This document shows positions 3,728 through 41,776 of a DNA stretch of 43,009 bases, one piece after another. How positions within the stretch are numbered: position 1 is the first letter of the stretch; each line of letters opens with the position of its first letter. This stretch comes from Oscillospiraceae bacterium (lineage in GTDB: Bacteria; Bacillota; Clostridia; Oscillospirales; Oscillospiraceae): positions 1 through 43,009 of the forward strand of contig JAFTGD010000004.1 of the NCBI GenBank assembly GCA_017458065.1, written 5' to 3'. A program made the position numbers and the translations under genes. The notes beneath the pieces are model-generated. The model had not been told where the DNA came from. It ran no database searches and saw only the letters and a program-made list of their open reading frames with translations.

Positions 3728-4775
3728 GGATGTGATCCGGTCTGTCGGACCGGAGGAGGAAGCGGCGCGGCAGGCCGCAAAGAGGCGATGGGACGCGGTT
3801 GCAAAACCGCTTGGCAGCCTCGGCTGCTTTGAAGACGCGCTGATCCGCATTGCCGCGCTGCGCGGCAGCGCGGACTTCAATTTGGAGAATAAGGCCCTGA
3901 TCGTCTTCTGCGCGGACAACGGCGTTGTGGCGCAGGGGGTCAGCCAGTGCGGGAGCGAAGTCACAGCGAAGGTTGCCGTCGCGCTGGCGGAAGGCCGCAG
4001 CACGGCCAACACCATGGCAAAGCGCGCTTCCTGCAGGGTGATCCCGATTGATCTTGGGATGAAGGATTTTCCGGGACATCCCGGCGTCCGCAATCTGCGG
4101 GTACGGAACGGGACCGGGGACATTAGCCTTGGACCGGCCATGACACGCGAGGAATGCCTCGCTTCCATGGAGCGGGGAGCCGCACTGGTTGAGGAGCTCG
4201 CCGCGTCCGGCACCGAGCTGATCGCCATCGGGGAGATGGGGATCGGGAACACCACGACTGCCGCAGCCCTCACGGCGGCACTGCTCGGTCTGGGGCCGGA
4301 GACGGTGATCGGCCGGGGAGCGGGACTGAGCACGGATGGCCTGCAGCGCAAGCGCGAGGCGGTATGCCGGGCGCTTAGGGTGAACCACCCGAATCGCGAC
4401 GACGTGATCGGTCTGATCGCCGATTTGGGCGGACTGGACATCGCGGCCATGTGCGGCGCCTTTCTCGGGGCCGCGGCCTGCAGGGTCCCGGCCGTGATCG
4501 ACGGGATGATCAGCGCGGCAGCCTCACTCTGCGCCCAGCGGCTCTGTCCGGCTGCGGCGGCCGCCATGCTGGCAAGCCATGTCTCGACGGAACCAGCCGG
4601 CAGACTGCTGCTGGACGCGCTGGGACTTCATGCCCCGCTGGATGCGGGAATGCATCTCGGCGAGGGAACCGGAGCGCTGATGCTGATGCCTCTGCTGGAT
4701 ATGGCCTGGGAGGTCTATCACAGCGGGCAGGATTTTGAGCGCCTGGGGATTGAGGCGTACCGGCCTCTGAGTTAA
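3714..4775 (+). CDS. cobT: Nicotinate-nucleotide--dimethylbenzimidazole phosphoribosyltransferase
   Basis: A 353-residue enzyme that makes alpha-ribazole phosphate, the lower-ligand nucleotide, from nicotinate mononucleotide and a benzimidazole-type base. Seen motifs are KPLGSLGCFEDALIRIAAL near the N-terminus, GEMGIGNTTTAAAL in the middle and HLGEGTGA near the C-terminus. The glutamate of the last motif falls at residue 317, the same number as the catalytic base of the Salmonella enzyme. No lower-ligand base biosynthesis gene (bluB or bza type) lies in this window. It starts inside the end of cbiA and is followed by cobU after 10 nt. Confidence 0.95.
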   Translation: MKKIEDVIRSVGPEEEAARQAAKRRWDAVAKPLGSLGCFEDALIRIAALRGSADFNLENKALIVFCADNGVVAQGVSQCGSEVTAKVAVALAEGRSTANTMAKRASCRVIPIDLGMKDFPGHPGVRNLRVRNGTGDISLGPAMTREECLASMERGAALVEELAASGTELIAIGEMGIGNTTTAAALTAALLGLGPETVIGRGAGLSTDGLQRKREAVCRALRVNHPNRDDVIGLIADLGGLDIAAMCGAFLGAAACRVPAVIDGMISAAASLCAQRLCPAAAAAMLASHVSTEPAGRLLLDALGLHAPLDAGMHLGEGTGALMLMPLLDMAWEVYHSGQDFERLGIEAYRPLS

Positions 4776-35789: not shown

Positions 35790-36599
35790 TCAGTCCACCT
35801 CCCGTTCCTGCGCCTGAAGGCCCTCGCCGATCAGGCCGACGCCGAAGACCAGCAGCACAATGGTAAGCCCGGTGCAGAGCGCGTACCAGGGGCCAGCTTT
35901 CAGCATGCTCTGCGCTTCGGAGAGCATATAGCCGAGAGAGGCGTCCGGCGGCGTCACGCCGATACCGAGAAAGCTCATGCTCGCCTCCGCCAGCACCGCG
36001 TTGTTGAAGCCGATGGTAAAGGCCGGCAGCAGGACGCGCACCGTGTTGGGCAGCAGATGGACAAAGAGGATGCGCCCGCTGGATGCGCCCATGAGGCGCG
36101 CCCCGGTCACATAGTTGCGGTTTCTGAGGGCGGCAAACTCCGTCCGCATCACCCTGGCAAAGCTGGGGATGAAGACGAGCCCGAGGGCGATCACAACGCT
36201 GTATTTCTTGCCCGGCCCCACAAGGCTCACCACCAGCAGCGCCAGCAGAAAGCTCGGGAACGCCGTCAGCGCGTCGTTGAGACGCATCAGCACATCGTCC
36301 ACGATCCCGCCGAAGTAGCCCGTCACGGCGCCGATCAGCGTGCCGATGACGGCGCCGATCGAGACCGTGGAGAGCGCAATGGCGAGGGTGGTGCCGGTGC
36401 CCTTCAGCACCCGGCTGAAGATGTCCCGGCCAAAATTGTCCGTCCCGAAGAGGTGCGCCCAGGAGGGCGGCTGGAAGCGGCCGTATTTCATCGCGGTGGG
36501 GACATAAGGCGTCCAGAAGGTCCCGATGACGGTGATCAGCAGCATCAGCCCGGTGATGATGAGGCCGACGGTCAGATAGCTGTTGAGACGCTTTTTCAT
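35790..36599 (-). CDS. ABC importer permease, DppC/NikC type
   Basis: A 269-residue permease with about six membrane helices. HLFGTDNFGRDIFSRVLKGT is the typical OppC/DppC opening after the first helix, and GARLMGASSGRILFVHLLPN is the EAA coupling loop. The start at 36599 overlaps the previous permease stop by 4 nt; a longer reading to 37271 runs inside that gene. Confidence 0.92.
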   Translation of the reverse strand: MKKRLNSYLTVGLIITGLMLLITVIGTFWTPYVPTAMKYGRFQPPSWAHLFGTDNFGRDIFSRVLKGTGTTLAIALSTVSIGAVIGTLIGAVTGYFGGIVDDVLMRLNDALTAFPSFLLALLVVSLVGPGKKYSVVIALGLVFIPSFARVMRTEFAALRNRNYVTGARLMGASSGRILFVHLLPNTVRVLLPAFTIGFNNAVLAEASMSFLGIGVTPPDASLGYMLSEAQSMLKAGPWYALCTGLTIVLLVFGVGLIGEGLQAQEREVD

Positions 36600-37576
36600 G
36601 ATCCGGCACCTCCAAGCTCCGCAGTGCTCAGCCGCAGCCGCGGATCGATGGCCTGGTTCACCAGATCGGCAGCCGTCCCGGCCAGCACGACCCAGAAGCC
36701 GAGGATGACCACGATGGTCTGCACCACCGGATAGTCCCGGTGGGAGATGCTGGTCACCAGAAAACGGCCGAGACCCGGGATGCCGAGAACCTGCTCCACA
36801 ACGATCCCGGCGCCGACCAGCTCCGCCAGCGTCTGCCCGAGAAAGGTCACGACCGAGACCATGGAGTTTTTCAGCACATGGCGGGTCAGCACGGTGCGGC
36901 GGTCGTTGCCGCGGCTGATGGCAGTGCGGACGTAGGCCTTGTTCATCTCGGAGATGACCGTCGAGCGCAGCATCCGTACCGTCATGGCGATGCGCGGGAT
37001 GCTCAGACATATAGCGCCGAAAAACAGGTGCCGCAGAGACGCGGCAAAGTCCTCCCGCAGACCCGGAAAGTCCCCCGGGGTGAAGACCCGGAGGACAATG
37101 CCGAAGCACCAGGAAAAGAGGATCCCGGTGAAGAATGGCGGAACCGCCATGCATAATTGATTCAGCGCGGTGCGCGGCCAGTTGGCAAAGCCGCCCGTAA
37201 ACCGGTAGGAGAAGATCCCGAGCGGGATAGAGATGACCGCAATCAGCACAAAGCTCATGAGGCTCAGCCACAAAGTGAGCTCCAGCTTTCCGGCGATCAG
37301 CCCCCAGACCGGCTGCCGATAACTGTAAGAGGTGCCCAGATTACCGGAGAAGAAGCCGGCCAGCCAGCTCAAATAGCGCAGGAGAAAAGGCCGGTCCAGT
37401 CCCAGCTCATGGCGCAGCGCCGTGAGCTGCTGGGGCGTGGCCTCGGTGCCCAGCATGGTCCGGGCGGGATCGCCCGAGACCAGCTCAAACGCCAGAAAGG
37501 TCAGAAACGACACCAGCAGCATCGTGACCAGCAGCAGGCCCAGCCGCTTCAGCGTGTATTGCAGCGCCGTGCTCAT
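36596..37576 (-). CDS. ABC importer permease, DppB/NikB type
   Basis: A 326-residue permease with the N-terminal helix and the motif SYSYRQPVWGLIAGKLELTL typical of DppB. The coupling loop is in RTAISRGNDRRTVLTRHVLK. It overlaps the receptor gene by 4 nt and the next permease by 4 nt, so all subunits are co-translated. Confidence 0.92.
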   Translation of the reverse strand: MSTALQYTLKRLGLLLVTMLLVSFLTFLAFELVSGDPARTMLGTEATPQQLTALRHELGLDRPFLLRYLSWLAGFFSGNLGTSYSYRQPVWGLIAGKLELTLWLSLMSFVLIAVISIPLGIFSYRFTGGFANWPRTALNQLCMAVPPFFTGILFSWCFGIVLRVFTPGDFPGLREDFAASLRHLFFGAICLSIPRIAMTVRMLRSTVISEMNKAYVRTAISRGNDRRTVLTRHVLKNSMVSVVTFLGQTLAELVGAGIVVEQVLGIPGLGRFLVTSISHRDYPVVQTIVVILGFWVVLAGTAADLVNQAIDPRLRLSTAELGGAGS

Positions 37577-39141
37577 TTGGCCCAGCTGAGCGTGGAGATA
37601 TCCAGCACGTAGATCGGATAGAAGGTCAGGCCCTCCAGACCGCTGCGCACCGCGACCAGATCCGCCATATCCTGCAGATAGACGTTGGCGGCGTTCTCGG
37701 TGAGGTTGCGCTCCAGCGCACGGTAGAGCTCGGTCTGCTCCGCGTCGTCGGTGGCGCGCAGAGCCTTGGCGAGCGTCTCATCATACTCCACGTTGGAGTA
37801 GTTGGTAAAGTTGTTGCCGACCTCGCTGCCGAAGCGCTCCAGCAGCTTGCGGGCGGTCATGTTGTCGCTGGTGAGCCCGGTGATGGTGCTCTGGAAGTTG
37901 CGGTTGCCGTAGACGTCCTCCAGCCAGGTACCCCAGTCGACGGGCTGGACGGTGGCCTTGATGCCCGCCTCACGCAGCAGCTCGACGAGGACGGTGGCAG
38001 TGTTCACGTGCGGGGTGTAGTTGGACGGCACGGTGATCGTCATCTCAAAGCCGTCGGGGTAGCCAGCCTCGGTGAGCAGCTCCTTCGCCTTTTCGAGGTT
38101 CAGCGTGTAGTAATCCGTCAGAGACTCGTCGTAGTATTTGCTGAAGGAGGGGAACATGGAGGTCCCAAGAGGGATGCCGTAGCCGTCAAAGGCGAGATCG
38201 ATGACCGCCTGCTTGTCCACGGCATAGCAGAGCGCCTGACGCACGCGCACGTCGTCAAAGGGCTTCTCGGCGTTGTTGAGATAGAGCGCCTGCACCAGGT
38301 TCATGCTGCCTTCCTCAATCTTGAAGGCGCCGGAATCCAGCTGCACTGTCTGGTCGCTGGAGAGGTGGGCCACGAGGTCCAGAGCGCCGCTCTGCAGACC
38401 GAGGACCAGACCCTCAGCGCCTTCCAGCACCTTAAAGGTGACCTTGTCCAGCTTGCCGGGCGTGCCCCAGTAGTCGTCAAAGCGCTCCAGAACCAGGCTG
38501 TCCTGTACCGCGCGTGAGACAAATTTGTAAGGGCCGGTGCCGACCGGCGCGGTCTCCTGCTCAGTGTAGTCCGCGGGGATGATATACGCGTTCATCACGG
38601 CCGCAAGGAACTCGTTGCTCGGCTCGGAGAGACGGATGGTGAGGACGTTGCCTTCCACCTCCACTGCCTCAATCACCGAGAGGGCGGCGAGCTGGGCGGC
38701 GGTGTCGTCACCTGTCCAGCGGCGCTCGACAGAATAAACAAGATCCTGCATCTCGACCGGATCGCCGTTGTGGAACTTCACGCCCTCGCGCAGCGTAAAC
38801 GCATAGCTCAGGCCGTCGTCCGACTTGACGATCTCAGACGCGACTGCAGGAACAATCTCACCGTCCGAGGTGGGCTTTACCAGCCCCTCGAACATATTGA
38901 ACAAAATTTCCTTGGTTCCTGCCGCCGTCATATAATCGGGGTCAAGACTGTCAAAATCCTGGGCGATGCCAATGTTGGCTTCATTGGTCTTCGCCCGGGG
39001 GTTCTCCTGTGCCGGAGCGGTCTGCTCAGGCTCGGCGCTGGGCTCGGCCGACGGAGCGGGCGCAGACTGACTGCCGCATCCGGTGAACAGCGCAAGGGCC
39101 ATCGCCAGTACAAGAGAGAGTGCAAAAATCCGTTTCTTCAT
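37573..39141 (-). CDS. ABC importer solute-binding lipoprotein, family 5
   Basis: A 522-residue peptide/nickel-binding family 5 receptor. The signal peptide ends in the lipobox FTGC, followed by an Ala/Pro/Glu-rich linker. The mature domain has EGLVKPTSDGEIVPAVAS and SYAFTLREGVKFHNGDPV, hallmarks of the family, with VGTGPYKF in the middle. Family members bind peptides, nickel, heme or opine-metal chelates, and the ligand cannot be read from sequence. Subunit lengths of the whole operon (522, 326, 269, 261, 246) are close to NikABCDE and Cnt systems. It is the first gene of the operon, with a promoter and operator-like repeat upstream. Confidence 0.9.
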   Translation of the reverse strand: MKKRIFALSLVLAMALALFTGCGSQSAPAPSAEPSAEPEQTAPAQENPRAKTNEANIGIAQDFDSLDPDYMTAAGTKEILFNMFEGLVKPTSDGEIVPAVASEIVKSDDGLSYAFTLREGVKFHNGDPVEMQDLVYSVERRWTGDDTAAQLAALSVIEAVEVEGNVLTIRLSEPSNEFLAAVMNAYIIPADYTEQETAPVGTGPYKFVSRAVQDSLVLERFDDYWGTPGKLDKVTFKVLEGAEGLVLGLQSGALDLVAHLSSDQTVQLDSGAFKIEEGSMNLVQALYLNNAEKPFDDVRVRQALCYAVDKQAVIDLAFDGYGIPLGTSMFPSFSKYYDESLTDYYTLNLEKAKELLTEAGYPDGFEMTITVPSNYTPHVNTATVLVELLREAGIKATVQPVDWGTWLEDVYGNRNFQSTITGLTSDNMTARKLLERFGSEVGNNFTNYSNVEYDETLAKALRATDDAEQTELYRALERNLTENAANVYLQDMADLVAVRSGLEGLTFYPIYVLDISTLSWAK

Positions 39142-39288: not shown

Positions 39289-39316
39289 GCGGCCGGTTTA
39301 TGCTTTTTCCGGCCGC
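39289..39316 (-). terminator. Terminator after metA
   Basis: GCGGCCGG (39289-39296) pairs perfectly with CCGGCCGC (39309-39316). On the minus strand AAATTTCTTG follows. It lies about 30 nt past the metA stop and just before the importer promoter. Confidence 0.6.
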
Positions 39317-39344
39317 AGGATATGCGCATAAGGCCGGCGGGCTC

Positions 39345-40271
39345 TCACTCAATCGGCGTGATGGCCTGGATGTCGTAAGGCGCGGCCTGATAGACAAAGT
39401 AGTTCAGCCAGTTGCTGAAGAGCAGGTTGGCGCTGGAGCGCCAGGTGTTGACCGGCGGTCTGGTGTCGTCGTCGTTGGGATAGTAGTTCTCCGGGATCTC
39501 GATGGGGAGCCCTGCCCGCTTATCCCGCAGGTATTCCTGCTCCAGCGTGCCGGTGTCGTATTCCGAATGCCCTGTGATGAAAATCTGGCGGCCGCCGTTG
39601 GTGCTGGCGGCATACACGCCTGCCCGCTCGCTCTCCGCGAGGATCTTGAGCTTGGGCTCGGCGGCAATGGCGTCGCGGGGCGTCTCGGTATGGCGGGAGT
39701 GGGGGACGTGAAACACATCGTCAAAACCGCGGAAGAGAATGGAGCTCTTGTGGGTGACCTCGTGCTCAAACACGCCAAAGAGCTTCTGGGGCATCTGACG
39801 CTTCTGAATGCCGTAGTGGTAGTACAGCGCGGCCTGCGCGCCCCAGCAGATATGCAGCGTGCTCTGCACGTGGGACTTGCTCCACTCCATGATCTGGCAC
39901 AGCTCGTCCCAGTAGTCCGCCTGCTCAAAGGGCAGATGCTCGATGGGGGCGCCGGTGATGATCAGGCCGTCAAAGTTGCGGTCCCTGATCATCTGAAAGG
40001 TCTTGTAGAACGTGAGCATGTGCTCCTGAGAGGTGTTCTTGGAGGTGTGGCTGTCAAAGGCCATGAGTTCAACCTCTACCTGCAGGGGCGTGTTCCCGAG
40101 CAGACGCACAAACTGGGTCTCGGTCGCAATCTTGGTGGGCATCAGATTCAACAGCAGGATGTGCAACATTCGGATGTCCTGGCTCAGCGCACGGGGCGTG
40201 TTGTAATAGAAGATGTTCTCGCGCTGCAGCGCGTCTGCGGCCGGCAGGTCGGGCGGGATGATGATAGGCAT
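39345..40271 (-). CDS. metA: Homoserine O-acyltransferase (acetyl-CoA type predicted)
   Basis: A 308-residue MetA-family enzyme that activates homoserine for methionine synthesis. The catalytic triad is visible at family numbering: Cys142 in HICWGAQA, His235 and Glu237 in TGHSEYD. Residue 111, in [10 protein letters not shown], is Glu; in characterised MetA proteins Glu here goes with acetyl-CoA use and Gly with succinyl-CoA, so O-acetylhomoserine is the likely product. AAAGGAAGGAAG lies before the ATG. The gene is preceded by its own promoter, a methionine-rich leader ORF and a terminator hairpin, indicating attenuation. Confidence 0.95.
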
Positions 40272-40293
40272 GAGGGTGAACTTCCTTCCTTTG

Positions 40294-40331
40294 AAAAAAT
40301 AAGCGGGAGGCCCCGTCTGGGACCTCCCGCT
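40294..40331 (-). terminator. Attenuator terminator upstream of metA
   Basis: On the minus strand a 13-bp stem (40331-40319 with 40314-40302, one G-T pair) with loop AGAC is followed by TATTTTTT (40301-40294). It ends 22 nt before the metA start, after the leader ORF, in the position of an attenuator. Its first arm, GCGGGAGG (40330-40323), can pair instead with UCUUCCGC at 40369-40362 in the last codons of the leader ORF. Confidence 0.88.
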
Positions 40332-40356
40332 GTGAAGACTGAATCAGCTTATGCTG

Positions 40357-40455
40357 TTACCGCGGAAGAATCGCACCGGAGGCGTGGCCATGGCGAAGCG
40401 TGCACATGCTCATAGGCATGTACATCATCATCTTCATCATGGAACGAGATGTCAT
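40357..40455 (-). CDS. Methionine-rich leader peptide of metA
   Basis: A 32-codon ORF with AGGAGG (40466-40471) 10 nt before its ATG. Nine codons are Met, eight of them in the stretch MMKMMMYMPMSM (residues 6-17). It lies about 33 nt after the predicted start of a consensus-promoter transcript and is followed by a strong terminator before metA. This is the layout of amino-acid leader peptides such as those of trp, his or leu operons, here with methionine codons as the sensor. Its last codons overlap the sequence that can form the antiterminator. A longer in-frame reading starting at 40590 would precede the promoter and is not expected to be made. The peptide itself probably has no other function. 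Confidence 0.85.
   Translation of the reverse strand: MTSRSMMKMMMYMPMSMCTLRHGHASGAILPR
40362..40369 (-). promoter_or_regulatory. Candidate antiterminator segment in the leader ORF
   Basis: UCUUCCGC (40369 to 40362 on the minus strand) can form an 8-bp helix with GCGGGAGG (40330-40323), including two G-U pairs, which would destroy the terminator. It lies 3-12 nt before the leader stop codon, so a ribosome reaching the stop would cover it, while one stalled at the Met codons would leave it free. A GAAGA inside the Met-codon region could in turn pair with its UCUUC. Confidence 0.6.
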
Positions 40456-40494
40456 CCGTGCAGATCCTCCTGATCGCGATTTAAAAACAAGCGA

Positions 40495-40523
40495 ATTATA
40501 TCGCGTACGGAGGCTTTTGTCAA
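40495..40523 (-). promoter_or_regulatory. Perfect-consensus promoter of the metA leader
   Basis: On the minus strand TTGACA (40518-40523) and TATAAT (40495-40500) are exactly 17 nt apart. Transcription should begin near 40488, giving a leader of about 217 nt. A promoter this strong with no visible operator agrees with control after initiation. Confidence 0.9.
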
Positions 40524-40582
40524 CCGCAAAGGAGACGGTTCTTTCCTGAAAAGAAAAAAGGGATGCAATCTTCCGCGGATTC

Positions 40583-40591
40583 TGATACAAT
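40583..40591 (+). promoter_or_regulatory. Possible extended -10 promoter for the DUF218 gene
   Basis: TGATACAAT resembles an extended -10 element about 50 nt before the start codon. No good -35 is visible. It is divergent from the metA promoter. Confidence 0.35.
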
Positions 40592-40639
40592 CAGCAGCAG
40601 AGGATCCGGAGATTCGGCGCTGACCGGCGAGAGAGGAAA

Positions 40640-41776
40640 ATGACCGTGAGCAGAGGACGAAAAAGAAGAACGCCGCGGCGAAGCGGCTTGATATGGGCGG
40701 TTTTTGCGGCTGTTCTGCTTCTGCTGTGCGCGGTCCTGCTGCTGCGTTATCTCCGGCTGCCGGAAGGCTCTCGCGGCGGAGAGGCGGTTGGTGTTGTTCA
40801 GCAGATCGCCGGAGCTGCGGCGCAGACGGACAGCGCGGATACTGTGTCTGAGGAGGCGGAAAATGCCGCCGACGGCGCGGAGCGCCCGGCGAGAGAGAGC
40901 ACCGCAGCGGAGCAGCACGTGCAGGAGGAAGGACAAAACGCGCAGACGCAGCCGGTCCAAAGCGCCTCTGATGAGAGCGTAACGGCTCCCGACGCTGAAG
41001 CTGCTTCCGTGCAGGGCACCACCGAGCCGGGAAAGCGCTATAACGAGCAGACCTACCAGCTGGTTACCGACCTGGTCGTCACCATGAGGAACCACGGCCT
41101 CGAGGGGGCCGATTCGATCCGCGCCCTGCTGGAGGAACTGAAGGCGGCGGACCCGGAGCTCGGCGTTCTCTGGGAAGGCATCATGGACTACTGGATGGAG
41201 ATCAGCGCAGACCTGCCCCTCTATCCGGGAGTGCTCCCCGACGGGCTGCCGGAGGACGACAGCCTTTGCATTGTCGTGCTTGGTTTCCAGCTGATGTACG
41301 ACGGGGACATGGCGCCGGAACTGGAAGGCCGCTGTGAGATCGCCCTTGCCAGCGCGAGAAAGTACCCCAACGCCTATATCGTGGTGACAGGCGGCGGCAC
41401 CGCAGCCGGAAACCACAGCGCCACCGAGGCGGGCGTGATGGCGGACTGGCTGATCGGGCAGGGGATCCGGCCGGAGCGGATCATTGTGGAGGACCGTTCC
41501 ATGACCACCGACCAGAACGCGGTTTTCTCCTGTGCGATTCTGGCGGAAGAATATCCGCAGATCAAAGAAGTCGCCATCGTCTCCAGCGATTACCATGTCG
41601 CGCTGGGGAGCATGATGTTTACCGAGGCAGGGCTGCTTTATGCCTATGAGAACAACTGCGGCGTGCCCTACCGTGTTGTGTCCAACGCGGCCTATGCCAC
41701 CACCGGCAACCCCGAGTACAGCAACACAAGGCGCTTTTCCTCCTATATCTGGGTGATGGCGGATCCGACATACTAA
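40640..41776 (+). CDS. Membrane-anchored YdcF/SanA-like (DUF218) protein
   Basis: A 378-residue protein. A basic N-terminus (residues 1-15) and one membrane helix (about 16-37) anchor it, followed by a disordered Ala/Glu/Gln/Ser-rich stretch to about residue 130. The C-terminal DUF218 domain starts LCIVVLGFQLMYDG and has YIVVTGGGTAAGNHSATEAG and IVEDRSMTTDQNAVFS, then IVSSDYH, matching the conserved residues of the family. Related proteins affect envelope barrier function in enterobacteria, but the enzymatic role is not settled. GAGAGGAAA precedes the ATG. It is monocistronic with a terminator after it. Confidence 0.87.
   Translation: MTVSRGRKRRTPRRSGLIWAVFAAVLLLLCAVLLLRYLRLPEGSRGGEAVGVVQQIAGAAAQTDSADTVSEEAENAADGAERPARESTAAEQHVQEEGQNAQTQPVQSASDESVTAPDAEAASVQGTTEPGKRYNEQTYQLVTDLVVTMRNHGLEGADSIRALLEELKAADPELGVLWEGIMDYWMEISADLPLYPGVLPDGLPEDDSLCIVVLGFQLMYDGDMAPELEGRCEIALASARKYPNAYIVVTGGGTAAGNHSATEAGVMADWLIGQGIRPERIIVEDRSMTTDQNAVFSCAILAEEYPQIKEVAIVSSDYHVALGSMMFTEAGLLYAYENNCGVPYRVVSNAAYATTGNPEYSNTRRFSSYIWVMADPTY

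Follow-up and report, generated by a model that had tools for sequence, protein, structure and literature searches.

A candidate Met-tRNA attenuator upstream of metA and similar Met-rich leaders before methionine genes of related clostridial genomes

The metA gene of the window (the whole stretch of DNA analysed, a 43-kb contig whose place in the genome rests on binning) is preceded by a Met-rich leader that we interpret, with a probability of roughly 85%, as a ribosome-mediated transcription attenuator measuring charged Met-tRNA. This interpretation was put forward in a preliminary description of the sequence and is supported by a family of similar leaders, in which terminators (40/43) and methionine target genes (32/33 profile matches) recur. 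What appears to be the same device stands before methionine genes in dozens of related clostridial genomes. Bacteria carrying this leader most likely gauge methionine by the speed of the ribosome over Met codons, and we infer that termination responds to Met-tRNA charging.

Leader, terminator and metA in the window

The following features, all on the minus strand, make up the metA upstream region.

40495..40523 (-): sigma-70-type promoter, TTGACA-17-TATAAT, 12/12 consensus matches
40458..40471 (-): segment A, the leader Shine-Dalgarno (SD) region (AGGAGGATCTGCAC), containing AGGAGG and complementary to segment B
40357..40455 (-): leader ORF, 32 codons plus stop, peptide MTSRSMMKMMMYMPMSMCTLRHGHASGAILPR
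40405..40440 (-): Met run with eight Met in codons 6-17, where ribosomes would stall
40402..40423 (-): hairpin within the Met run (GTACATGC..GCATGTGC), predicted here and for many relatives
40362..40376 (-): segment B, codons 27-32, putative partner of segment A or of the terminator 5' arm
40345..40356 (-): small hairpin right after the leader stop codon (CAGCATAAGCTG), from the predicted fold
40294..40331 (-): intrinsic terminator, a 13-bp stem (40302-40331) followed by a T tract, TATTTTTT
40315-40330 (-): segment C, the terminator 5' arm and loop
40281..40292 (-): putative metA ribosome binding site (AAAGGAAGGAAG), assigned from sequence
39345..40271 (-): metA, homoserine O-acetyltransferase (NCBIfam NF047918), the presumed regulated gene

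The promoter, the AGGAGG, the 32-codon ORF with eight Met in residues 6-17 (positions 6, 7, 9, 10, 11, 13, 15 and 17) and the 13-bp terminator ending 22 nt before metA had all been named in the preliminary description, and each was confirmed. The 22-nt gap is that between the end of the T run at 40294 and the metA start at 40271. MetA matched NF047918 with 473.8 bits against a cut-off of 460.5. Among the 364 small ORFs (20-80 aa) of the window, the leader alone had at least 4 Met in 14 residues. The region 39300-40700 held two promoter-like sites, compared to a shuffle mean of 0.5, and three terminator-like sites, compared to 0.7 in shuffles. Six other metA leaders (L100 not among them) had a 17-nt promoter spacer, with 10-12 promoter matches.

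The window genome has three such leaders, one at metA and a near-identical pair upstream of two metN genes (G000:C22:23958-24050(+) and G000:C50:4502-4594(-); MRTNRHSFMMMAMHMCSMCMMMRAQNSAS[P/T]D). Downstream of metA (36596-39141, -), the window encodes a peptide/nickel-type substrate-binding protein and, by eye, a permease.

Distribution of the Met-rich leaders

Relatives of MetA were scanned with one genome per species, taking the best 80 of 90 loci. The metA start lay inside the locus in 78 of these, and a like leader was found at most 420 nt upstream of metA (less at contig ends) in four (L002-L005), each of which also has a terminator-like hairpin and a promoter spacer of 17 nt. Of the remaining 74 loci, 73 lacked any ORF reaching 4 Met in 14 residues, while L051 had a weak, unrelated one. 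Small ORFs with at least 6 Met in 14 residues were rare, numbering 11 among 6,132 in 606,487 scanned bases, a set made up of the window, the loci up to L111 and the T-box loci, which are mostly metA neighbourhoods and in part duplicated. All 11, of which 10 are distinct (L082 is the window itself), precede metA or a metY-metA operon (L013, L016 and L019; metY by eye), and a chance ORF was rejected on these grounds.

A profile built from the first five leaders matched 37/400 genomes of the window genome's family at E ≤ 0.05. Inspection of these matches revealed leaders before metN, metQ and cysK besides metA, as well as chance matches among the weak ones. A profile of 26 leaders matched 33/300 same-family genomes at E ≤ 0.02, and 32 of the 33 places precede metA, metN, metQ or metY (L208 is the exception). 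The wider searches, whose profiles and E thresholds differ from one another and from those of the family searches, matched 2/394 genomes at order level (E ≤ 0.002; the window genome and G695), 2/391 at class level (E ≤ 0.01; the window genome and G907) and 1/279 at phylum level (E ≤ 0.02; the window genome), few enough to suggest that the leader family is centred on one taxonomic family.

In total, 47 Met-rich leaders were collected, before metA (8), metN (18), metQ (13, L127 included), metY (7) and cysK (1); 43 came from the profile and MetA-locus work and four (L013, L016, L019 and L100) were added later. Because the downstream gene helped to decide which weak matches were kept, the 32/33 profile matches are a fairer figure than 47. 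Matches dropped on inspection were L129-L132, L134, L136-L144, L150, L168, L169 and L208, and the counts exclude the uninspected L113-L115, L148, L171-L173 and the five-leader-profile places without a locus (one of which, in G011, is L167). Those named relatives that have leaders are known from records of metagenome assemblies or of uncultured isolates. Models for MetN, MetQ/NlpA, CysK and O-acetylhomoserine sulfhydrylase were matched by ten sampled target proteins, all over the Pfam cut-off and several below that of NCBIfam; the other targets were assigned by eye from translations.

A predicted translatable ORF with an SD-like stretch (by eye) is present in all 43 listed leaders, which are 27-44 aa long with 5-12 Met each, start included. 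The Met run and SD-like stretch are retained in leaders of diverged sequence. A fixed rule found terminators in 40/43 leaders, compared to 20/300 random positions; it gave none for L119 and L167, whose terminators were assigned by eye (that of L167 with a poor T tract), and L205 fell slightly short. In the metQ and metY loci, the gene starts ~100-240 nt past the leader. The preliminary description had proposed a search of relatives and had held that absence of conservation would speak against attenuation; conservation was found, with Met runs, SD-like stretches and terminators repeated among the 8 metA leaders and the 39 metN, metQ, metY and cysK leaders. In genomes without annotation, the leader could serve as a marker placing metNIQ-type transporters and metY genes under methionine control.

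MetA of the window is 82-88% identical to MetA of L002-L005, two of which belong to another genus, but 63% identical to that of G174, the one same-genus genome listed with a match (G004 and G109, of the same genus, are listed without one, and 28 further genomes had none). This pattern could reflect a horizontally transferred leader-metA unit or a misbinned contig, either of which leaves the leader finding itself unaffected. In G174 (L210, G174:C17:70500-73000), a metN with a Met-rich leader diverges from a metA that has no leader in the 300 nt upstream, suggesting that leaders come and go gene by gene. Unlike in the window, metA is followed by a metY-like gene (by eye) in L002-L004. In L005, a THF riboswitch (RF01831, 84 bits; 4189-4282, +) lies ~770 nt beyond the end of metA.

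In nine loci (L145, L165, L174, L195, L196, L199, L205, L206 and L212), the stretch from the leader terminator to metQ or metY contains a second short ORF whose context, CGAATGT, recurs (by eye). Its peptides end or run on at ..RFGRM(C) before metY and ..RMCPxxT (..NERM in L205) before metQ; RRMC occurs also in the metL peptide of S. lividans (PMC8079986). No Rfam match was found in the second short ORF in the 8/9 loci scanned, and no NCBIfam match for two metY-type peptides (one of them queried with a wrong residue). It is possibly a second leader peptide.

Pairings, the proposed switch and other readings

The leaders are predicted to be highly structured. To compare pairings, we used 36 leaders (43 less 7 near-duplicates), and in earlier tests 22 (26 less 4); L013, L016, L019 and L100 stand outside the structure tests and the terminator count. 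In the swap test, the SD region was set against the last codons, taken from the end of the Met run up to the stop, of its own or of other leaders, with 100,000 permutations. Own pairs averaged -18.4 kcal/mol compared to -14.8 kcal/mol for swapped pairs (36 leaders; z -7.7, p 1e-5, the permutation floor). The signal persisted within gene classes (z -6.2) and when the post-stop tail was added (z -8.4, or -6.9 inside gene classes), and the control, the SD against the post-stop tail alone, gave z -0.3 (36 leaders). This A:B helix was also better than shuffles (Fisher p 9e-9, 22 leaders) and than synonymous recoding (Fisher p 1e-8, or 6e-9 with window-gene codon weights; 10/36 leaders at p<0.05 each). 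The own partner was the single best of 36 in only three leaders (five when the tail is added), which means that the set is shifted as a whole. In the window, GGAGGATC-TGCAC lies opposite GTGC-GATTCTTCC, with p 0.07-0.20 for the window alone (shuffling, recoding). Across the leaders, the last codons are complementary to, and covary with, their own SD region, which is a new finding; the preliminary description had noted an antiterminator and missed this better supported helix. A:B is predicted to mask the leader's own SD and, because segment B is shared, would also pre-empt the antiterminator. As a separate observation, the SD paired worse with its own Met run than with swapped ones (z +3.3, 36 leaders), as if this pairing were avoided.

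The antiterminator of the preliminary description corresponds to B:C. Swapping gave z -3.2 and p 0.001 in 36 leaders (within class p 0.02) and p 0.048 in a first test of 22, and an ensemble test against shuffles gave Fisher p 0.004 for energy and 2e-4 for pairs (22 leaders). Shuffled-duplex energies (Fisher p 0.11, 22 leaders) and synonymous recoding (Fisher p 0.07; 2/36 leaders at p<0.05) gave weaker, non-significant signals. In the window alone, UCUUCCGC and GCGGGAGG are complementary as described, yet pair no better than shuffled or recoded sequences (p 0.35, 0.24, 0.75). We consider a B:C antiterminator likely for the leader family and unproven in the window sequence itself. For the cysK leader of L133 (leader match 1501-1560), the last codons are predicted to form a duplex of 16 pairs with the terminator arm, at -19.0 kcal/mol (rank 2 of 22).

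Other pairings gave no signal: the Met run with the last codons (swap p 0.44, 22 leaders), the terminator arm with the post-stop tail (z +2.0, swapped pairs being better, 36 leaders) and the SD with the terminator arm (z -0.9, 36 leaders). A selected hairpin within the Met run is not claimed, as its signal mostly reflects codon usage, Fisher p being 1e-15 with uniform codons and 0.01 with window-gene weights (4/36 leaders at p<0.05).

In the proposed mechanism, when methionine is plentiful, the first ribosome would reach the stop codon and cover B, C would pair with the second terminator arm and transcription would end. After ribosome release, A:B would form and stop further synthesis of the Met-costly leader. 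When methionine is scarce, ribosomes would stall in the Met run and following ribosomes would occupy A, leaving B free to pair with C, and metA would be transcribed. Without translation, A:B would form and termination would be the default. The Met codons are 6-17, the switching codons (B) 27-32 and the stop is at 33; B presumably lies within the stretch that a ribosome at the stop codon covers, and the codon spacing fits attenuation. A ribosome stalled in the Met run leaves A uncovered, and the model therefore needs queued ribosomes or kinetics that beat A:B formation. Further points count against attenuation. The B:C signal is weak, the own A:B partner is rarely the single best, and the T tract of L167 is poor. 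Methionine shortage should slow fMet-tRNA initiation too, and conserved non-Met residues (MC; R or C, R or C, A) seem unneeded by codon sensing alone. More generally, methionine is awkward for leader-peptide control because each start codon also needs it.

A fuller version, which we put forward tentatively and at somewhat less than even odds, is a dedicated Met-tRNA attenuator regulon (metA, metY, metNIQ and cysK) with a three-way switch. Here B would pair either with its own SD (leader off, default termination) or with the terminator arm (read-through), queued ribosomes on the Met-starved leader would hold the SD open and free the antiterminator, and the peptide would be made about once per transcript. 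Such a regulon would stand where SAM riboswitches or T-boxes might be expected. The 47 leaders, with their clear target set and covarying SD helix, offer many natural variants for telling codon-specific stalling, SD masking and antitermination apart.

The interleaved Cys and Met codons raise the possibility of joint sensing of methionine and cysteine by a general sulfur amino acid sensor, which we consider unlikely but a serious contender. Cys is present in 43/43 leaders counted, with 1-7 each, and the sole cysK leader (L133) has the highest count of 7. However, the cysK case is single, the UGC codon also serves the hairpin, and the window leader has one Cys compared to nine Met (start included).

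The conserved residues could instead mark nascent-peptide arrest, in which M-C-M-P-M-x-M-C-M-x-R-R-A would stall its own ribosome on methionine, SAM or another small molecule, and this stalling, rather than slow decoding by Met-tRNA, would switch the terminator. The late Met is followed by a nearly invariant Cys, and R/C-R/C-A is frequent across leaders of different genes. The core nevertheless varies (AVMCM, CSMCM, PGCMCM, CRMCM) while the Met count stays at 5-12, the residues past the core vary as well (TLRHG, MMSAT, AFAVP, SFHAH), and part of the motif may stem from the self-complementarity of TGC-ATG codons in the Met-run hairpin. Arrest is improbable on this evidence.

Since A:B, the best supported structure, masks the leader SD, the leader's main effect might be on how its own ORF is translated, or it might act in trans, as a peptide or small RNA, with a terminator in either case that only ends a separate small gene. 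This is still less probable, as 32/33 profile matches directly precede a methionine gene. Moreover, the scan of 39300-40700 found no promoter-like site between the window terminator and metA, the second site (9/12 matches) being inside the leader ORF, upstream of the terminator.

SAM riboswitches (RF00162) and T-boxes (RF00230) are known regulators of methionine genes in Firmicutes. The preliminary description found neither at the site, and Rfam agrees: it gave no match at gathering score in the whole window, neither SAM riboswitch nor T-box. In 40000-40900, with E up to 10, there were six sub-threshold Rfam matches, none of them a SAM riboswitch, and a T-box was likewise not found. At the leaders of the scanned relative loci (10 + 20 + 20), no Rfam family covers the leader, and both classes were rejected for the scanned regions. 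In contrast, both are matched elsewhere in the window genome. The T-box has seven matches, one over the family cut-off, and the single match to SAM-I, the SAM class searched genome-wide, precedes metK (by eye). A SAM-I match before metK, with leaders before metA and two metN genes, was counted in favour of Met-tRNA attenuation, and it raises the question of why synthesis and uptake should be governed by Met-tRNA in this genome, as they appear to be, when SAM sensing is kept for metK. An unrecognised kind of riboswitch or T-box that encloses a Met-rich ORF by chance, for which the predicted high structure of the leaders might speak, is very improbable, given that matches were only sub-threshold (in 40000-40900) and that the Met run and SD-like stretch are kept despite sequence divergence.

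Comparison with known systems

In the trp, his, leu, thr and ilv attenuators, the structural gene is preceded by an intrinsic terminator, by alternative helices and by a leader ORF in which codons for the end product abound, and the window shares the codon-rich leader ORF, the predicted alternative helices and the terminator. Unlike in these classical attenuators, the codons are those of Met, the leader SD rather than the run codons would compete with the antiterminator, and the antiterminator is statistically weaker. Translation of the E. coli trp leader is self-limited by a comparable pairing.

Seliverstov et al. describe no conserved RNA structures upstream of methionine operons in Actinobacteria (PMC1262725), and Naville and Gautheret describe regular leader peptides, for His, in bacilli (PMC2965389). 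A search of the open literature, with preprints and most subscription papers outside its scope, yielded no Met-codon attenuator in Clostridia among the matches listed. In Streptococcus, an fthC uORF motif consists of a uORF and a terminator with a suggested indirect response to methionine (PMC11109978). It differs in that the proposed action is via the initiator tRNA, on initiation of the uORF (PMC11109978). In Rhodobacterales, uORFC-8-2 before cysS has a stem with Cys codons in a uORF and a terminator, and attenuation was proposed (PMC8632094); it differs in having two Cys codons, a tRNA synthetase gene as target and an alphaproteobacterial host (PMC8632094).

Two Met-leader candidates were found in the literature searched. 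S. lividans metL, from RNA-seq, is a candidate Met leader peptide before metNIQ (ARCMCRRMCAF; PMC8079986). It resembles the clostridial leaders in its metNIQ target and interleaved Met and Cys, and differs in being leaderless, without a clear intrinsic terminator, and in belonging to Actinobacteria (PMC8079986). C. jejuni MetL has 20 aa with three Met codons before metBA, and a short RNA ends just past its stop codon (PMC3847290). The same attenuation mechanism was proposed for it, and its reported occurrence is confined to C. jejuni, C. coli and C. doylei (PMC3847290). For neither candidate do the sections drawn on report a mutational test (PMC3847290, PMC8079986). Met leaders had already been proposed in both species (PMC3847290, PMC8079986), which qualifies the preliminary description, and the clostridial leaders are therefore not categorically new. 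By description, MetL of C. jejuni (PMC3847290) shares with the window leader a short Met-codon ORF before a metA-containing operon, whereas the clostridial leaders have 5-12 Met in 27-44 aa and stand before several target genes.
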